Shown: one piece after another, positions 39,487-52,147 of the stretch | Position numbering within the stretch: the first letter of the stretch is position 1 | How the letters are laid out: every line of letters starts with the position of its first letter | The notes under the pieces: generated by a model | Databases searched by the model: none | Seen by the model: only the letters and a program-made list of their open reading frames with translations | What the model was told of the DNA's origin: nothing | Made by a program: the position numbers and the translations under genes | Assembly: GCA_022821085.1 (NCBI GenBank) | Contig: JAJEEG010000002.1 | Span: forward strand, 434,001-498,000 | Source of the DNA: Candidatus Latescibacterota bacterium | GTDB lineage: Bacteria; JAAXHH01 | Direction: 5' to 3' | DNA length: 64,000 nucleotides

Positions 39487-39504
39487 CATTCCGTGAGGTA
39501 CAAG

Positions 39505-40884
39505 ATGGACAGGAAACCCGGTGGCCTGACGCTTCTGTTTTCCGTGAGATGCGTCCTTGTTAAATCCGGATTCCGCGTTATCCTTCGCCGCATCGCCCTG
39601 TCTTGCTTCATACGTACGCACTTCGTACTTTCGCTCTTTGTTTTATCGCTCACAGCTTGCGGCCCTTCCACCGAACAGCCTGTTTCCACGTCCGATTGCG
39701 TGACCTGCCACCAGGACGCCACCCCCGGCATCGTCACGGACTGGGCACTCAGCACCCACAGCACAAGCGGCGTGGACTGCGTCATGTGTCACGGCGGCGA
39801 CCACCGCACGGAGGAGGACGTGGCCCTGGCCGGCGTGGCGACGCCCGACGTGTGCGCCACGTGCCATCCCATCCAGGTGGAACAGTTTGCCGGGGGCAAG
39901 CACGCCCTCGCCTGGACCAGCATGAACGCCATGCCGACGACCCACTTCCTGCCCATGGCCCTGACCGAGGGCATGAAGGGTTGCGGCGGATGCCACCGTA
40001 TCGGCCTCAAGACCGAAGAGGAAATCAAGACGATCAAGGCGCAGGACGGGCTGTTCGGCCTTTCGTCCTGCGACGTCTGCCATACCCGCCATCTCTTCTC
40101 GGTGAAGGAGGCCCGGGAGCCCCAGGCGTGCAGGACGTGCCACATGGGTTTCGACCATCCCCAGTGGGAGATGTACGCGTCGTCCAAGCACGGCGTGCGG
40201 CACCTGCTCAAGCAGAACGGCACGCTGCCGGAGCACGCCCAGGCGCCGACGTGCCAGACCTGTCACATGCCCGAGGGAGACCACGGAGTCCGTACCGCGT
40301 GGGGGTTCCTGGCCGTCCGGCTGCCCCTGCCGGAAGACCCGCAGTGGGCGGAGGACCGGACAATCATCCTCCAGGCGCTCGGTGTATTGGACCCGGAGGG
40401 CAACCCCACGCCTCGCCTGGAGGTGGTCAGGCAGGCCGACGTGGCCAGGCTGACGCAGGAAGACTGGCAGCGGGAGCGCGACCGCATGACCGGCATCTGC
40501 GAGCAGTGCCATTCGGGCAATCTCGTGCGGGCGGAACTCGAAAAGGGCGACGAGATGATCCGCGAGACCGACCGGCTCCTGGCCGAAGCCATCCGCATCG
40601 TCGCCGCACTGTACCGGGACGGGATACTGGCCCGTCCGGAACACTATGTATACGACTATCCCGACCTGCTGGCGTTCCACGACGCGCCTTCGAGGATCGA
40701 GCAGCGGCTCTTCAGGATGCACCTGGAACACCGCATGCGGGCGTTCCAGGGGACCTTCCACAACAATCCGGATTACGCGCTGTGGTACGGCTGGAGCGAA
40801 ATGGTGCAGGACCTGGCCGAGATCCGGGAGATGGCCCGGGAACTTCGTGAAGACGCCTCGCAGCGGGAAACGGAGCCGAACTAG
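39505..40884 (+). CDS. Octaheme cytochrome c, hydroxylamine oxidoreductase-like lipoprotein
   Basis: 459 aa from ATG 39505, chosen because TGAGG lies 6 bases upstream. A signal sequence ends in the lipobox LTAC, so it is a lipoprotein. Eight CxxCH heme motifs are present (CVTCH, CVMCH, CATCH, CGGCH, CDVCH, CRTCH, CQTCH, CEQCH). The C-terminal FHNNPDYALWYGWSEM is like that of HAO proteins. HAO-family octahemes oxidise hydroxylamine/hydrazine or, without the tyrosine cross-link, reduce nitrite. I cannot tell which, since the cross-linking tyrosine cannot be placed by eye. The following NapC-type gene points to quinol-driven reduction. The ccm operon at 2.7-7.5 kb would mature it. Confidence 0.85.
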   Translation: MDRKPGGLTLLFSVRCVLVKSGFRVILRRIALSCFIRTHFVLSLFVLSLTACGPSTEQPVSTSDCVTCHQDATPGIVTDWALSTHSTSGVDCVMCHGGDHRTEEDVALAGVATPDVCATCHPIQVEQFAGGKHALAWTSMNAMPTTHFLPMALTEGMKGCGGCHRIGLKTEEEIKTIKAQDGLFGLSSCDVCHTRHLFSVKEAREPQACRTCHMGFDHPQWEMYASSKHGVRHLLKQNGTLPEHAQAPTCQTCHMPEGDHGVRTAWGFLAVRLPLPEDPQWAEDRTIILQALGVLDPEGNPTPRLEVVRQADVARLTQEDWQRERDRMTGICEQCHSGNLVRAELEKGDEMIRETDRLLAEAIRIVAALYRDGILARPEHYVYDYPDLLAFHDAPSRIEQRLFRMHLEHRMRAFQGTFHNNPDYALWYGWSEMVQDLAEIREMARELREDASQRETEPN

Positions 40885-40919
40885 ATGGCCGGCGCGCCCC
40901 GGGACAGGAGCCGAACCGA

Positions 40920-41546
40920 GTGGCCGGATTGACCGGATTTACCGTCAGTCTCATCTTCCTGGCGGCCGTCACGCTCGCCATGATCGTGGTGGTCCTGAGG
41001 CGGCCCGAACTTACCGCCTCGGCCGGCGGCATGATATTCGCCTTTTTCACGTTTTTCGTGCTGCCCGGCGTGGCGCTGCTCGGTGGGTCCGTTCAGCACT
41101 ACGAGCAGGCCAAGTCGACCGAGTTCTGCGTCTCCTGCCACATCAACCAGCCCTTCAGAGAGAGCCTGTATATCGACGACGGACGGTTTCTGCCCGCCGC
41201 CCATTTTCAGAACAAGCGGATCCCCGCCGACCGCGCCTGCTACGCCTGCCATTCCGACTACACCATGTTCGGGGACGTGGACGACAAGATCCGGGGCGTG
41301 CGGCACGTCTGGCACAACGTCTGGGGGACCTGGTCGGAGCCTGTCGCGCTATACGAGCCTTTCGAGAACACTGCCTGTCTCGAATGTCACGCGGGCGCGC
41401 GGTCGTACGAGGAGCATCCGGACCACCAACCATATCTGCGTGAGCTCATTGACGGTTCCAGGTCATGCGTAATGTGCCACAACCTCGTGCACGAGGTGGA
41501 CAAGCTGGATCGGTTCGGCAGATGGGAACCGGAGGCGGGAGAGTGA
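40920..41546 (+). CDS. NapC/NrfH-type tetraheme quinol dehydrogenase
   Basis: 208 aa, GTG start with ACAGGAG ten bases upstream. One or two N-terminal hydrophobic helices (about 5-25 and 37-57) lead into a periplasmic part with four CxxCH sites (CVSCH, CYACH, CLECH, CVMCH). NapC/NrfH proteins draw electrons from menaquinol or ubiquinol and pass them to a periplasmic multiheme reductase, here the octaheme lipoprotein 35 bases upstream. The stop codon lies inside a 19-bp tandem repeat. Confidence 0.88.
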   Translation: MAGLTGFTVSLIFLAAVTLAMIVVVLRRPELTASAGGMIFAFFTFFVLPGVALLGGSVQHYEQAKSTEFCVSCHINQPFRESLYIDDGRFLPAAHFQNKRIPADRACYACHSDYTMFGDVDDKIRGVRHVWHNVWGTWSEPVALYEPFENTACLECHAGARSYEEHPDHQPYLRELIDGSRSCVMCHNLVHEVDKLDRFGRWEPEAGE

Positions 41547-43740: not shown

Positions 43741-44056
43741 ATTGATATAATTAGTGTTAATTGTGTCAGTAATCAAGGGATATTTTTGATAAGATGTCTT
43801 TATGGAAATCTGCAACGCGATTCTGTGACCGCCTTGATGGCTGTCTGAAATTCAATTTTCCTTAAAACTGCTTGACATAACAGACAAATGTCTGTTTTTT
43901 GGATTTTCAGGCGCGCGTTTTGGTGCGCCGCTCTGTTGCGCCGGCCCGTTTCGCCGGCCCGTTTCGCCGGCCTATCCGCGTTGGTCCAATTCGCCGGCCC
44001 GTAACGCCGTCCATGTCATCGGCACGTTTCACCATCTCCGTCCCTGGGAGACCATC
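43741..44056. promoter_or_regulatory. Divergent region between AAA ATPase gene and lexA
   Basis: 316 bases. The left part (43741-43880) is A/T-rich. It holds the lexA promoter and operator (listed separately). The right part has a 13-bp tandem repeat CCGGCCCGTTTCG at 43941-43953 and 43954-43966, with a partial third. No gene is supported in it. Confidence 0.6.
43872..43900 (+). promoter_or_regulatory. LexA box within the lexA operon promoter
   Basis: A perfect palindrome AACAGACA-AA-TGTCTGTT at 43879-43896 begins two bases after a perfect -35 TTGACA (43872-43877) and would overlap the spacer and -10. It is the only such palindrome noticed in the window and sits upstream of lexA. LexA autoregulation of the mutasome operon is thus likely. 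It differs from the E. coli (CTGT-N8-ACAG), Bacillus and alphaproteobacterial boxes. Confidence 0.7.
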
Positions 44057-44671
44057 ATGGCCTATACATCGCCTGGGAAGACCAGGGAGAAGATCTACGA
44101 TTTCGTGCGGGAGCGGATCTTGAGCGGGACCCCGCCCACGACCCGGGACGTGCAGCGCGCATTCGGGTTCCGTGCGGTCCAGTCCGCCCGCCAGCACCTG
44201 GAGAAGCTGGTGTTCGAGGGGAAACTCGCCAAGGTGGACGGCAGGTCCCGGGGTTACCGGCTGCCGGAGTTCGGCAAGGCCGTCCCGCCCCAGTTGATCG
44301 CCATGCTGGGGCGTGTGCAGGCGGGCGAACTGACCGAGGCCATGGAGGACCCGCCGGAATACATCATGGTGCAGACGCGTTTCGACGACGATGAACTCTT
44401 CGCCCTGACCGTGGAGGGGGAGAGCATGCTTCATGCCGGCATCCTGCCGGGAGACGTGGTGATCGTGCGCCGGCAGCCGACGGCCAGTCCGGGGGACATC
44501 GTGGTGGCCCTGGTGGGCGACGAGGCGACGGTCAAGCGGTACCGGGAGCGGGACGGCCGCGTCGAGCTGCATCCGGAGAACGAGGCCTTCGACCCGATCA
44601 TCCCCCGGGAGGACGGCGCGCCCTTTTCGCTGCTGGGCAAGGTCATCGAGATACGGCGGAGCGTTGAGTAG
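44057..44671 (+). CDS. lexA: SOS repressor LexA
   Basis: 204 aa. N-terminal winged helix (about 10-70) with TTRDVQRAFGFRAVQSARQHL as recognition region, differing from E. coli LexA and in keeping with a different operator. The self-cleavage site is Ala89-Gly90 (VQAGEL), the catalytic pair Ser123 (GESM) and Lys160 (ATVKRY). RecA-ssDNA filaments trigger cleavage and derepression. First gene of the lexA-imuA-imuB-dnaE2 operon, behind its own candidate operator. Confidence 0.95.
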   Translation: MAYTSPGKTREKIYDFVRERILSGTPPTTRDVQRAFGFRAVQSARQHLEKLVFEGKLAKVDGRSRGYRLPEFGKAVPPQLIAMLGRVQAGELTEAMEDPPEYIMVQTRFDDDELFALTVEGESMLHAGILPGDVVIVRRQPTASPGDIVVALVGDEATVKRYRERDGRVELHPENEAFDPIIPREDGAPFSLLGKVIEIRRSVE

Positions 44672-44744: not shown

Positions 44745-45380
44745 ATGTCGTCCCTGCAGGACCGGGATCTGCAGGATCTCGAACCCTATTTCACGCGGAT
44801 GCCCGCCGGAAAGCGGGAGGAGCGGCCGCGCTGGTCGCGGTCGCAGTTGGCCGGGCGCCTCTGCGAGCTCTCGTCCGTCCCCGGGGCCGCCCTGCTGACG
44901 GCCGCCTTCCGGCTGGTGCTGGACGCCCAGCTCGAGGGCGAGCCGGCGGCCTGGATCACGGCGACGCCGGACACCTTCTTCGCGCCGGACGCGGCGGAGA
45001 GCGGCGTGGACCTGGACGCCCTGGTGGTCATCCGCGTACCGGACGCGCGGGCCGCGGCGCGGGCGGCGGACCGGGTCCTGCGTTCGGGCGGCTTCGGCCT
45101 GGTGGTGATGGACCTGCACGCCGATTCCAGGATCCCCGTGCCCCTGCAGGTGCGCCTGGCCCGGCAGGCGCGGGACCACCATGCCGCCCTCCTGTGCCTG
45201 ACCGCCAAGTCCCGCGAGGCGCCTTCGCTGGGGCCGATGGTCACCCTGAGGGGCCAGACCTCCTGCCGCCGCCTGGCGGTGGACCGTTTTCAATGCGAAA
45301 TCGAAATCCTGAAGGACAAACGTCATGGACCGGGCTGGCGCCACACCGAAATCTGCCGCGGGCCGGACGGCCTGCATTAA
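44745..45380 (+). CDS. imuA: ImuA-like mutasome accessory protein
   Basis: 211 aa from ATG 44745 with GAAGGA upstream. A RecA/SulA-like fold with no intact Walker A: the segment after the first strand reads ITATPDTFFAPDAAESG, and the following blocks LDALVVIRVPDARAAARAADRVLRSG-type and FGLVVMDLH resemble ImuA/SulA. ImuA proteins bind RecA and ImuB and are needed for DnaE2-dependent damage tolerance. Overlaps imuB by 56 bases, so the two are tightly coupled. Weak sequence conservation. The name leans on gene order. Confidence 0.75.
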   Translation: MSSLQDRDLQDLEPYFTRMPAGKREERPRWSRSQLAGRLCELSSVPGAALLTAAFRLVLDAQLEGEPAAWITATPDTFFAPDAAESGVDLDALVVIRVPDARAAARAADRVLRSGGFGLVVMDLHADSRIPVPLQVRLARQARDHHAALLCLTAKSREAPSLGPMVTLRGQTSCRRLAVDRFQCEIEILKDKRHGPGWRHTEICRGPDGLH

Positions 45381-46815
45381 CATCCGGGCGCTGCCGCTTC
45401 GGCTCCTGCTGAGGAGCCATCCGCAGTGGCGGGAACGGCCGGTGGCGGTGGTGGAAGAAGAAAAGCCCCTGAGTCCCATCCTGTGGCTCAACGCCGCGGC
45501 CGTTAAGGGCGGGATCCGGCCGGGCATGAAATACGCCGCGGCCCTCTCCCTGGACCGCGGCCTGTGCGCCGGGACGGTTTCGGAGGAGGAGGTCGGGGCG
45601 GCGGTCCGGCAGGTCCACGGCGCGCTGGACCGTTTCAGCCCCCGGGTGGAGCCGAGCGGGGAGGAACCGGGGATCTTCTGGGTGGACGCGGGGGGACTGG
45701 ACCGGCTCTACGCGTCGCTGGAGGACTGGGCCGGGCAGATGCACGCCGCCCTCTCCGGGCTGGAACTGCCGGCGAGCATCGCGGTCGGTTTCGGCCGCTT
45801 CGGCACCTATGCCGTCGCCAAGGCGAGGGACGCGGTGACCGTGCTCCCCACCATGGCGGCCGAGGAAGCCGAGAGCCGAAAGGTGCGGCTGCTCGATCTG
45901 CAACTCGAGCCGAAGCTGCGGGAACGGCTGGACAAGCTGGCCGTGTATACCGTGGGGGATTTCCTGGCCCTTCCCGGGGAGCGGATCGCCCGGCATCTCG
46001 GCGGGCAGGCCCGGGCGCTCTACCGCTTCGCGGCGGGAGACCGGTCCCTGCCCCTTCAGCCGCGGGGCCTTTCCGAACCGCTCCGCGCCCGGATGGAACT
46101 GGACGCGAACGAATCGGACGCCCGGGGCCTCCGGTTCCGGGTGTCCCAGCTACTGGCGCCCCTGCTGAAGGCCGCGGGAGAAAGATACCAGGCGGCCGCC
46201 GCCCTCCGGCTGGCGTTCCGGCAGGAGAACGGCACGCGCCATCGCTGCCGGGTCCAGGCGGCCGAACCGACGCTGGATGCCAGGGTCCTGCTGGAACTGG
46301 TGGGCCTGCGCCTGGAAACGATTTCCTTCCCCTTCCCCCCGGTGGAGCTGGTCCTCGAGGTGGAGGGCGTGGGCGTCACCGCCGACAAGCTGAACCTGCT
46401 GCAGGAGAACCCGGACCGCGACAGGGGATCGGCCATGCGGGCCCTGGCGCGGGTCCGGGCCGAGTTCGGGCCCGGTTCGGTCCTCACGGCGCAACTGGCG
46501 TCGGGACATCTCCCGGAAGCCCGTTTCGGGTGGCAGCCCTTCGGCAAGCTCTCCGCGGCCACCCCCCGACCGGTGGCCGTGCGCGCCCTGGTGCGCCGCG
46601 CCCACGCCCGTCCCCGGCTCCTGGAAGGCCAGCCCGTGAACTGGCAGGCGCCTTCGGGCCCCGGCCCGCCCCCGGAACACCTGGTCAGCGGCGGATGGTG
46701 GGTCCGGGAAATCCGGAGGGACTACCGTTTCGTCGACACCGCGCGGGGCGAAACCCTCTGGATCTACTACGACCACGGGAGCGGCCGCTGGTACGTCCAG
46801 GGCCGGGTGGAATGA
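45325..46815 (+). CDS. imuB: ImuB, inactive Y-family polymerase-like protein
   Basis: 496 aa. Y-family fold with the palm start [20 protein letters not shown], and [15 protein letters not shown] where active enzymes have SIDEAYLD. The catalytic acidic residues are not kept, as expected for ImuB, which acts as the hub joining DnaE2, ImuA and the beta clamp. The little-finger region spans about 240-360. Ribosome site GAAGGA precedes ATG 45325. Its stop overlaps the dnaE2 start (ATGATG). Confidence 0.9.
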
Positions 46816-49800
46816 TGGCCCGGGAACGCGCGGATCCGGCGCCCACGAACCCGCCCTCGGACCCCACTTTCGCGCCCCGGGTCGCCGCCAGCACCTACGC
46901 GCCCCTCTGGTGCAAGAGCAATTACTCCTTCCTGGAAGGGGCCAGCCATCCCGAGGAACTGGTGGAGGCCTGCCGGCGCCTGGGCATCCCGTCCCTGGCC
47001 CTCACCGATCGCAACGGCGTGTACGGCATCGTGCGGGCCCACGTCCGCGCCCGGGAACTGGACGTCCACCTGGTCGTGGGGTCGCAGGTCAGCCTCCGGG
47101 ACGGTTCGGAGATCGTGCTGCTGGTCCAGGATCGGGAAGGCTACGCCCACCTCTGCCGGCTGCTGACCGCCGGTCACCTGCGCGGCGCCAAGGGGGACTG
47201 CCGGGTGAGCTGGGAGGAGGTGTGCCGCCACAGCCCGGGGCTGATCGCCCTGTGGATCGGGGCAGCCAGCGGGATGGCCGGCGGAAAGGCCGGTTCCAGC
47301 GCGCCCGGAAGAGATGCCGGTCCGGCCGCGTCCGCCCCCGCCCCCGTCCTCGAACAGCTTTGCGCGGCCTTCGAAGACCGCCTCTACGTGGTCCTGGCCC
47401 GGCACCGCCGGGCGGAGGAGACTCTGAAGGAGATCCGGCTCCGGGAGCTGGCGGACCGGTTCGGCCTGCCCACCGTGGCCGCCGTGGAGGTCCTCTACCA
47501 TACGCCCGGTCGGCGCCCCCTGCAGGACGTGCTCACCTGCATCCGGGAGGGGGTGACCCTGCCCGCGGCCGGGCGGCTCCTCCGGCCGAACGACCAGCAC
47601 GCGCTCAAGGGGCCGGAGGACATGGCCCGCCTCTTCGCCGACGATCCGGCGTCCCTCGAACGGACCCGCGAGGTGGCCGCCCGCTGCGCCTTCTCCCTCG
47701 GGGAACTGCGCTACCGCTACCCGCTGGAGCGCCTGCCGCAGGGCAAGACGTCCTTCCAGTACCTGGAGGAGCGCACCTTCGCGGGCGCGGCCCGCCGCCT
47801 GGGCGGCAAGTTCGAAACGCAGGTCCCCCAGCTGAAGAAGGAACTCGCGCTGATCCGGGAACTGGAGTACGAGGGTTATTTCCTGACCATGCACGAGATC
47901 GTGGAGTACTGCCGCCGCGAGCGCATCCTCTGCCAGGGCCGCGGGTCGGCGGCCAACTCCGCCGTCTGCTTCGCCCTGGGCATCACGGGCGTGGACCCCA
48001 CCCAGGTGAACCTCCTCTTCGAGCGGTTCATCTCCAGGGAAAGGGCCGAGCCGCCGGACATCGACCTGGACATCGAGCACAACCGCCGGGAGGAGGTGAT
48101 CCAGCACGTGTACAAGAAGTACGGGCGCACCCACGCCGCCATGGTGGCCAACGTGGTCCGCTACCGGCACCGGTCCGCCATCCGGGAGGTGGGCAAGGTC
48201 CTCGAGATCCCGGCCACCGGCCTGGACCGCCTGGCCCGGCAGGTGTCCCACGGGCACTGGGACGAGGACTTCATCCGCCAGGCCGGCCTCGATCCGGAGA
48301 ACCCGGCCCTGCGCCACCTGGCCGCCCTGGTGCTGGAGATCCAGGACTTCCCCCGCCACCTCTCCATCCACCCCGGGGGTTTCCTGCTGGGCCACCACCC
48401 CGTCCACGACCTGGTGCCCATCGAGAACGCCACCATGGAGGGGCGGACGGTGATCCAGTGGGACAAGGAGGACGTGGAGGACGCGGGGCTGTTCAAGGTG
48501 GACCTCCTGGGCCTCGGCGCCCTCAACCTGCTGCACCTCGGCTTCGACCTCCTGCGGCGGCACCGCCGGATGGAACTCTCCCTGGCCACGCTCCCCCGGG
48601 AGGACGCCACCACCTTCGACCTGATCTGCCGCAGCGACACGGTGGGCGTGTTCCAGATCGAGAGCCGGGCCCAGATGGCCATGCTCGGGCGCCTGAAGCC
48701 CCGCACCTACTACGACCTGGTGATCGAGATCAGCATCGTCCGCCCGGGGCCCATCACGGGCGGCATGGTCCATCCCTACCTGCGGCGGCGCAACGGGGAG
48801 GAAGAGGTCACCTATCCCCACGAAAGCCTCGTGCCCGTCCTTGAGAAGACCCTGGGCGTGCCCCTCTTCCAGGAGCAGGTGATGCAGCTGGCCATGGTGG
48901 CGGCGGACTACACCCCCGGCGAGGCGGACCAGCTCCGGCGGGACATGGCGGCCTGGCGGCGGTCGGGACGGATCGAGCGGCACCGGGAACGGCTGGTCTC
49001 GCGCATGATCAAAAAAGGCATCGCGCAGGAATTCGCCGAGCACGTCTTCATGCAGATCCGCGGCTTCGGCGAGTACGGTTTCCCGGAGAGCCACGCCGCC
49101 AGCTTCGCCCACATCGCCTACGCCACCGCCTACCTGCGCTGCCATTACCCGGCGGAGTTCACCTGCGCCCTGCTCAACGCCCAGCCCATGGGGTTCTACT
49201 CGCCCTCCACCATCGTCAACGACGCCCGGATACACGGGGTGGAGGTGCGCCCGGTGAGCCTGCGCCGCAGCCGCTGGGACTGCACGCTGGAGGCGGTCGG
49301 GCACGGCAGTGAGGGCGGTGATGGCGCGAGCGTTCCAGTCGGCAATGGGGGCGGAAGCGGTGCGGCCGGAGCGGGTTCGGGTCGCGGCGCGGATGCGGGC
49401 GGCAAGGCAAGCGTCAACGGCAGCGGCAACAGGTCCGGCAACGCGTCCGGCAATGGGCATGCCGGCCGCAAACCCCGCCTTCCCTTCGCGGTCCGCATGG
49501 GTCTGCGCTACGTCCGCGGACTGGGGGAAGGCGACGGGGAGCGGCTGGAAGCGGCCATGGAGCAGGCGCCCTTCCGCGATATCGCCGACGTCGCCCGGCG
49601 GAGCGGCCTGAGCGCGGACAAACTCGAGTCCCTGGCCGAGGCGGGCGCCTTCGCGTGCTTCGGTCCGCTTGGCCCGTTCGGCCCGGACCGCCGCGGCGCC
49701 TTATGGCAGGTCCTGGGGACCGAAACCGGCGGGCCGCCCCCCTTGCCGATGAAATCCCGCGATGCCCAGCCCCGCTTCCTGTCTCTGAACAGCCTGGAGA

Positions 49801-50207
49801 CCATCCTCTGGGACCACCAGGCCGCCGGCCACAGCGTGCAGGGCCACCTCCTCAAGCCGCGCCGCGCCGAACTCGCCGCCCGGGGCCTGCCCACCGCCCG
49901 GGAACTCAACGGCATGCCGGACGGCCGCTCGGTCCGCTACGTGGGCCTGGTCATCTGCCGCCAGCGCCCCGGGACCGCCCAGGGCGTCACCTTCATGACG
50001 CTGGAGGACGAGACCGGCTTCGTGAACCTGGTCATCTGGGAAAAGGTGTTCGAGCGCAACGCCCTGCTGGCCAGGACGCTGCACTGCATGGGCGTGACCG
50101 GCAACCTGCAGGTGGGCGAGGGCGTGGTCCACCTCGTGGTCGAGACGGTCTGGGACCCGAAGCTGGAGGACCGGACGCTGCGGCTGCGGAGCCGGGATTT
50201 CCGATGA
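46812..50207 (+). CDS. dnaE2: Error-prone DNA polymerase DnaE2
   Basis: 1131 aa. It starts at ATG 46812 overlapping the imuB stop. The frame is open further upstream but that part lies in imuB. PHP domain at about 38-260 ([20 protein letters not shown] split), palm with catalytic aspartates in [15 protein letters not shown] (about residue 415), [15 protein letters not shown], fingers, helix-hairpin-helix, and a C-terminal OB domain (about 1025-1090, [15 protein letters not shown]). It carries out mutagenic translesion synthesis in the SOS response. Residues about 829-886 are a Gly/Ser/Asn-rich insertion not found in typical DnaE2. In-frame repeats suggest slippage origin. Confidence 0.95.
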
Positions 50208-50897: not shown

Positions 50898-51755
50898 TCA
50901 CCTTTCCCCCATCATCCCCCTCAACCGGTCCCATTCTTCCAGGTAAGCCGCCAGATGCCCGTTTTCCGGTGATTGCGCCTTCTCCGCGAGCATGGTCCGC
51001 ACCAGGTCCTGTTCCTCCAGGTACTGGTCGTCGCTGAAGAACCCCGCGAAATGGGCGATGCGAAGCCAGACGAGGTAGGTCGTCACGGCATCGTGCTGGT
51101 TGTACTGGGCGATGCGCCGGATACCGCCGTCGAGCCAGGCCTCGGCGACGCTGTCACCGTCGAAACCACCCAACTTGCCCGGGATACCCGACAGTACCGC
51201 CATCTCCTTCAGGGAGGGGCGCGCCTTGCCCCACTCGCCGATGGCCGTCATCAGGTCCACGTTCCACTCGCTGGCCCGCGAGAAGTAATCGTAGCCCTCC
51301 CAGGGCTTGTCCGGCCGCTTGCAGAACCCGGGGGCGGTGATGCCCTTGATGATCCCGCGCTGGATCATGACAGGCAGGTCCGACCCGGTGGAATTGAAGC
51401 CTACGAGCTGGGGCAGGCGGCGGCCCACGCTTTCCAGGAACCGGGACAGGATCGTGGCTTCGTCGCAGTCGTCGGGGTTGTCCGGGTCCCGGGGTTGTAC
51501 GCGCAGGTCAAGCGTGATGTTTCCCTGTGGATCCTGGCTCCGGGTCACCATGGCGATGGAGACCAGGCGGGACATGGCGTACTTGAGAAAGGGCCGCGGC
51601 TTTTCTTCGGTGGCCCCGTTCTGGCGCCACATCTCCTGGATGACCTCGGAGTCGGGCATATCGGCCGGCAGGTCGTAGAGCAGGCGTCCCGCGTCGGGGT
51701 CGGGCACCCATTCCGCGTCGAAGGCCCACACATCGTGTTTTACGCTTTTGAACAT
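50898..51755 (-). CDS. Predicted 3'-5' exonuclease, PolB-like
   Basis: 285 aa. DEDD-type exonuclease: first motif FDAEWVPD near residue 12, second VGFNSTGSDLPVMIQRG near 118-134 (Asn/Asp), third YNQHDAVTTYLVW near 220 (His/Asp). This matches the family described as 3'-5' exonuclease related to the PolB exonuclease domain. No polymerase domain follows. It probably works in repair or RNA/DNA turnover. Its start overlaps the end of the vapC-like gene by 16 bases, so it may be cotranscribed with the toxin-antitoxin pair. Confidence 0.85.
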   Translation of the reverse strand: MFKSVKHDVWAFDAEWVPDPDAGRLLYDLPADMPDSEVIQEMWRQNGATEEKPRPFLKYAMSRLVSIAMVTRSQDPQGNITLDLRVQPRDPDNPDDCDEATILSRFLESVGRRLPQLVGFNSTGSDLPVMIQRGIIKGITAPGFCKRPDKPWEGYDYFSRASEWNVDLMTAIGEWGKARPSLKEMAVLSGIPGKLGGFDGDSVAEAWLDGGIRRIAQYNQHDAVTTYLVWLRIAHFAGFFSDDQYLEEQDLVRTMLAEKAQSPENGHLAAYLEEWDRLRGMMGER

Positions 51756-52147
51756 GATAACAAGGTAACTCCTTCCTGCCGTGCGGCCTTCCGATCGAAA
51801 GTGTGCAAAGGCAATGCGTTCGATCGTTCGGCGGCAGCCAGTATCATAAGGTCCGAGAATCCTGTGCTGCCCGTCCCGTAACTGAACGCAGCCTGTGCGA
51901 CATCGGCGCCAGCCTCAATCACCAGTACGTCCGTTGAGACCAGCTGCTCCAATGCATCGGCAATATCCTCACGAGAAAGGCCATAAGCCCGTTCCAGAAC
52001 CCAGACGAGTTCAAGAATGACTTCCCGGCAGACGAACCCGGGTTGGTCCGCGGTAAGCGAAGACATTAAACTCCGGGCGGTCGCGGCCTGTGCTTCGTCG
52101 TCGCGCACCAGGTACCGAACGAGAACGTTGGTGTCCAGCGCAATCAT
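51740..52147 (-). CDS. vapC: PIN-domain toxin, VapC family
   Basis: 135 aa. PIN ribonuclease with Asp5 in LDTNVLVRYL, an acidic Glu in VCREVILELVWVLERAYGL, and a late Asp in STGFSDLMILAAAE, then LHTFDRKAA. VapC toxins cleave tRNA or rRNA, and growth arrest is prevented by the paired antitoxin. It overlaps the upstream AbrB-type antitoxin gene by four bases. All catalytic acids look intact, so it is likely functional. Confidence 0.9.
   Translation of the reverse strand: MIALDTNVLVRYLVRDDEAQAATARSLMSSLTADQPGFVCREVILELVWVLERAYGLSREDIADALEQLVSTDVLVIEAGADVAQAAFSYGTGSTGFSDLMILAAAERSNALPLHTFDRKAARQEGVTLLSCSKA

Follow-up and report, generated by a model that had tools for sequence, protein, structure and literature searches.

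A predicted LexA2 operator in the promoter of a lexA2-imuA-imuB-dnaE2 operon of Candidatus Latescibacterota

Introduction

The 64,000-nucleotide stretch of Candidatus Latescibacterota DNA analyzed here (the window; contig JAJEEG010000002.1, positions 434,001 to 498,000) encodes a LexA protein immediately ahead of a set of translesion synthesis genes, and a palindrome in the promoter of this gene set had been put forward, from the sequence alone, as a new LexA operator. The locus hence raises the question of which protein, if any, recognizes this palindrome, and of how such a site relates to the remainder of the SOS system of the organism. The evidence assembled below indicates that the palindrome very probably serves as the operator for LexA2, a repressor whose gene heads the lexA2-imuA-imuB-dnaE2 operon, and that it serves this operon alone. 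The original prediction of a LexA operator for the operon is strongly supported by the footprint, by clade-wide co-occurrence of box and regulator, and by joint change of helix and operator.

Results

The palindrome occupies the promoter spacer of the lexA2 operon

The sequence AACAGACAAATGTCTGTT, at positions 43879-43896 of the window, is a genuine 18-bp palindrome, as originally described, made up of two 8-bp arms in exact inverted repeat, with a central AA that is not itself self-complementary. Allowing up to three mismatches, the pattern matches the window once, whereas 0.05 matches are expected from shuffled sequences, and the 3.75-Mb genome contains a single full copy. The interval first singled out, 43872-43900, coincides exactly with the promoter, from TTGACA through the -10 hexamer, and the palindrome lies inside the 17-bp spacer, overlapping the promoter of the lexA2 operon (Table 1). 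Since the box fills the spacer, bound LexA2 would be expected to exclude RNA polymerase.

Table 1. Promoter elements and genes of the lexA2 operon, in window coordinates.
Feature	Position	Strand	Evidence
-35 hexamer TTGACA	43872-43877	+	sequence; kept in 12/12 genus genomes
Predicted LexA2 operator AACAGACA-AA-TGTCTGTT	43879-43896	.	sequence, footprint, clade comparison
Core of putative operator, CAGACA-N2-TGTCTG	43881-43894		invariant
-10 hexamer TTTTTT	43895-43900	+	17 bp from -35
lexA2, 204-aa LexA	44057-44671	+	TIGR00498, 149.6 bits (cut-off 110.95)
imuA-like, RecA-like	44745-45380	+	NF033429, 26.5 bits, below cut-off (weak)
imuB-like Y-family polymerase homologue	45325-46815	+	PF00817 (IMS); position in cassette
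dnaE2, error-prone polymerase III alpha subunit	46812-50207	+	NF004225, 1308.8 bits (cut-off 939)

Family and domain matches bore out the assignment of the downstream genes as lexA-imuA-imuB-dnaE2, the ImuA-like match being weak; counterparts of the imuA-like gene occupy the same place in other cassettes, with 42-53% identity. LexA2 presents a winged-helix DNA-binding domain (PF01726, 32.1 bits) and an S24 peptidase domain (PF00717, 94.9 bits), and its Ala89-Gly90 cleavage site, Ser123 and Lys160 are invariant across the LexA2 clade. The E. coli LexA residues contacting DNA are S39, N41, A42, E44 and E45 (PMC3091678); in an alignment that is gapless across the helix, LexA2 has A, Q, S, R and Q at these positions, retaining none of the five, in keeping with the earlier remark that its recognition helix is unlike that of E. 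coli LexA.

Elsewhere in the window, two adjacent genes rich in CxxCH motifs (39493-41546) probably encode multiheme cytochromes, and a minus-strand reading frame beginning MIALDTNVLVRYLVRDD (51740-52147) is PIN-domain (VapC-like) in appearance.

The promoter is conserved in the genus and the box is unique to it

Across 12 same-genus genomes, mean column identity in the lexA2 promoter is 0.986 from -35 to -10, as against 0.49 upstream and 0.60 downstream. All 11 sister genomes present TTGACA, a 17-bp spacer containing CAGACAWWTGTCTG, and TTTTAT nearly unchanged at lexA2, between diverged flanks. The window carries TTTTTT in place of the TTTTAT found in the 11 sisters, which may point either to a promoter weakened by natural change or to a fault in the assembly. 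Between promoter and lexA2 lies a GC-rich leader of repeated CGCCGGCCCGTTT units (43920-44010), the length of which varies among sister genomes.

An inverted repeat followed by a run of T could also encode an RNA hairpin, acting as an intrinsic terminator or attenuator, with no protein site involved, and in the window the sequence does fold into seven pairs ahead of a T-run, at -7.8 kcal/mol. The hairpin would, however, sit within the -35 to -10 interval, ahead of the likely start of transcription; the gene upstream of the palindrome, for an AAA/DUF4143 ATPase, is oriented divergently, and there is therefore nothing to terminate; the T-run is broken (TTTTAT) in 11/11 sister genomes; and the base changes seen at variant loci are symmetric and track the recognition helix. 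On these grounds the terminator reading was ruled out, and a hairpin without a protein site is scarcely credible here.

The exact core CAGACA-N2-TGTCTG is found once in each of the 12 genus genomes, always ahead of lexA2, and one-mismatch matches in these genomes occur at about the level of a reversed-pattern control. One such match, at C1:213298 in genome G000, was considered as a further site and rejected, as it overlaps long reading frames and lacks a clear promoter setting. It had been suggested that the motif should also precede recA, uvr and dinB genes; this did not hold, with no other exact copy of the core in the 12 genomes and a different box at recA. The missing boxes do not speak against an operator, because LexA2 seems to act as an additional LexA repressor with a single operon under its control.

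Two LexA proteins and two types of box coexist in the genome

Besides LexA2, the genome encodes LexA1 (contig 1, 1.537 Mb), which has counterparts in other genera of the phylum. Among 16 genomes of the phylum, LexA2 is confined to its own genus, as is close full-length DnaE2, and a LexA2 contig scan recovered only the genus and relatives at ~43% identity, the latter with other helices and, save for one weak exception, no cassette.

Throughout the genus, the recA promoter presents TTGACA followed in the spacer by TAHACA-N2-TGTTTGG (L173 in the organism itself), and the lexA1 promoter presents TTGACG followed in the spacer by TAACCR-TA-TGTTGTG (L019), both boxes taking the same spacer position as the LexA2 box. 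We infer these to be candidate LexA1 operators for the phylum, and the genome thus apparently uses two distinct LexA codes in parallel. Genome-wide, the lexA1-box pattern matched at about control level and was left out of the analysis.

The recA and LexA2 boxes have in common the inner ACA-N2-TGT, as well as their position in the promoter, and LexA1, the presumed recA regulator, might through this inner core bind the LexA2 site too. A precedent for such double control exists in Leptospira interrogans, where LexA2 recognizes the palindrome TTGTA-N10-TACAA in its own promoter and LexA1 is reported to bind there as well (PMC3789691). Against it, the outer arms of the two boxes differ, at position +5 every genus recA copy reads T and the LexA2 box reads C, and the cassette box keeps G/C at this position in 12/12 genus genomes. 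Recognition of the site by both repressors is accordingly unlikely in our estimate, and LexA2 without cross-binding by LexA1 is the reading we favor.

The box accompanies a LexA2 clade found in several phyla

We searched for distant LexA2 proteins in a sample of 384 genomes and then in two of the phyla to which the relatives belong. The sample yielded seven relatives at 57-62% identity, followed by a drop to ≤50%, and the two phyla contributed three more; in a third phylum, represented by two genomes, no LexA2 relative was found. The distant lexA2 genes are followed by imuA and imuB in nine of ten cases, and dnaE2 was seen in eight of ten, the contigs of G040 and G154 ending too early to tell. 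In a tree of 75 LexA proteins, all LexA2 sequences fall in one clade (15 rows, 100/100 support), apart from the LexA1 of the host. The clade is sporadic in other phyla, where it occurs with imuA-imuB-dnaE2. Plasmids, phages and IMG/VR, with a consensus-like clade sequence as phage query, returned no member of the clade, all matches being below 60% identity.

The box is conserved with its regulator beyond background. Half of the ten distant loci (L200, L202, L203, L216 and L217) carry the exact core and two (L198 and L215) carry it with one mismatch, whereas none of 113 upstream regions of other LexA genes has it at ≤1 mismatch, a threshold that shuffled sequences reached in 10 of 20,000 cases. 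The promoters of two further distant loci, L197 and L201, are without a recognizable core. Upstream of lexA at L039, L041 and L204, which belong to another LexA lineage (helix SSTNGVRSLL), there is a near-perfect palindrome, ACTGCACACRCGTGCAGT, possibly a further operator type.

Operator and recognition helix appear to change together

The CAGACA box is found at loci whose recognition helix reads [RK]AV[QE]SAR or the close variants RAIETAR and RAVQTAR. At about the same promoter position, three loci with other helices present other boxes: CAGTCA-TA-TGACTG, a symmetric variant, at L199 (helix AAYESAR), GTGAACATTTGTACAC at L197 (RSVNAAR) and GATACATTTATATG at L201 (RAIRTVQ). Although these variant loci are few, all three point the same way, suggesting that operator and recognition helix change together.

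We also sought further boxes, as a sign of regulon expansion, in the 12 genus and seven distant genomes, and the sole notable extra was in G388 (L234), before a dnaE2 gene detached from the rest of the cassette. In this genome dnaE2 lies ~1.7 kb beyond imuB (gap L234 4358-6061), and the variant box of G388, CAGACGCATGTCTG, recurs ~55 bp before the dnaE2 match; besides these two copies, the genome has one other one-mismatch match. A search of the six other distant genomes turned up no further copy of their respective lexA2 cores. A second box at the split-off dnaE2 is what would be expected if the box is an operator needed by the mutasome genes.

Palindromes of this kind are bound by many dimeric regulators, and LexA2 binding is a prediction; a regulator unrelated to LexA could in principle be the ligand. 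This is very improbable, however, given that in several unrelated lineages the site goes with the LexA2 clade and its cassette rather than with other genes, and that it varies with the LexA2 helix. The LexA2 operator remains the preferred reading.

Discussion

The LexA box of E. coli is CTGT-N8-ACAG, the Gram-positive-type box of Bacillus and Actinobacteria is CGAAC-N4-GTTCG, and the LexA2 box of Pseudomonas putida is GTAC-N4-GTGC. With E. coli LexA, the LexA2 described here shares a winged-helix dimer predicted to act on a palindrome, but the half-site is different, as are the contact residues. The likeness to the Gram-positive type is closer: the core is likewise a 14-bp palindrome inside a promoter, with the inner AC-N4-GT at the same positions. 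The LexA2 box does not, however, carry the Gram-positive half-sites; these read CGAACA there and CAGACA here, and only the inner ACA-N2-TGT is common to both. At Oscillospiraceae lexA loci we found CAAACA-N2-TGTTTG, one symmetric change from the LexA2 core. The original view that the palindrome is unlike the known boxes of Gammaproteobacteria, Bacillus, Alphaproteobacteria and Leptospira is thus correct for the outer bases, which are distinct, but overstated for Bacillus, since length, spacing and inner core are of the Gram-positive type. CAGACA-N2-TGTCTG was not found as an operator in the literature searched, which did not extend to the key Erill/Abella papers, and it is apparently an unreported variant of the Gram-positive type, and no new architecture.

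In arrangement, the locus resembles that of P. putida, in which LexA2, according to PMC3901139 (citing Abella 2004, 2007) and PMC5261740, controls lexA2-imuA-imuB-imuC(dnaE2) as one unit beside LexA1. Here too a second LexA heads imuA-imuB-dnaE2, with a predicted private operator, and LexA1 would have its own regulon; the comparison is one of arrangement, and the operator sequences differ. The Leptospira LexA2 is likewise a diverged second LexA whose own promoter holds a palindrome private to it, a feature that is predicted in our case, but the palindromes differ in sequence and LexA1 is also present on the Leptospira promoter. PMC8565304 counts 17 LexA motifs and links the new ones to lexA duplication, and the leading model for drastic change of the LexA box is duplication and divergence followed by regulon takeover (PMC8565304).

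On the proposed mechanism, a LexA2 dimer on CAGACA-N2-TGTCTG within the 17-bp spacer would block RNA polymerase. Following DNA damage, RecA filaments would trigger LexA2 self-cleavage at Ala89-Gly90, upon which the operon would be expressed and the translesion mutasome (ImuA, ImuB and DnaE2) made, until fresh LexA2 shut the operon off again. The recA and lexA1 genes, with their different boxes, would presumably answer to LexA1. The steps of RecA-triggered cleavage, derepression and renewed repression are proposed on the strength of established LexA biology. Weighing against the proposal are the L197 and L201 promoters without a recognizable core, the terminator-like hairpin score, the weak TTTTTT -10 hexamer of the window, the inner ACA-N2-TGT in common with the recA box, through which LexA1 might bind as well, and the small number (three) of variant loci behind the joint change of helix and box.

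Beyond this genus, the balance of the evidence tilts modestly towards a horizontally spread SOS module, in which a LexA clade with its own operator code and imuA-imuB-dnaE2 would have reached several phyla. Such a module would repress nothing but its own mutasome and stay insulated from the LexA1 regulon, and its helix and operator would change together. The loci, which span several phyla, constitute a natural variant set, each pairing a helix with its presumed cognate box, and could allow LexA specificity to be deduced directly. They also suggest that a mutasome can bring its own switch into new hosts, and that induced mutagenesis may be regulated apart from the host SOS response.
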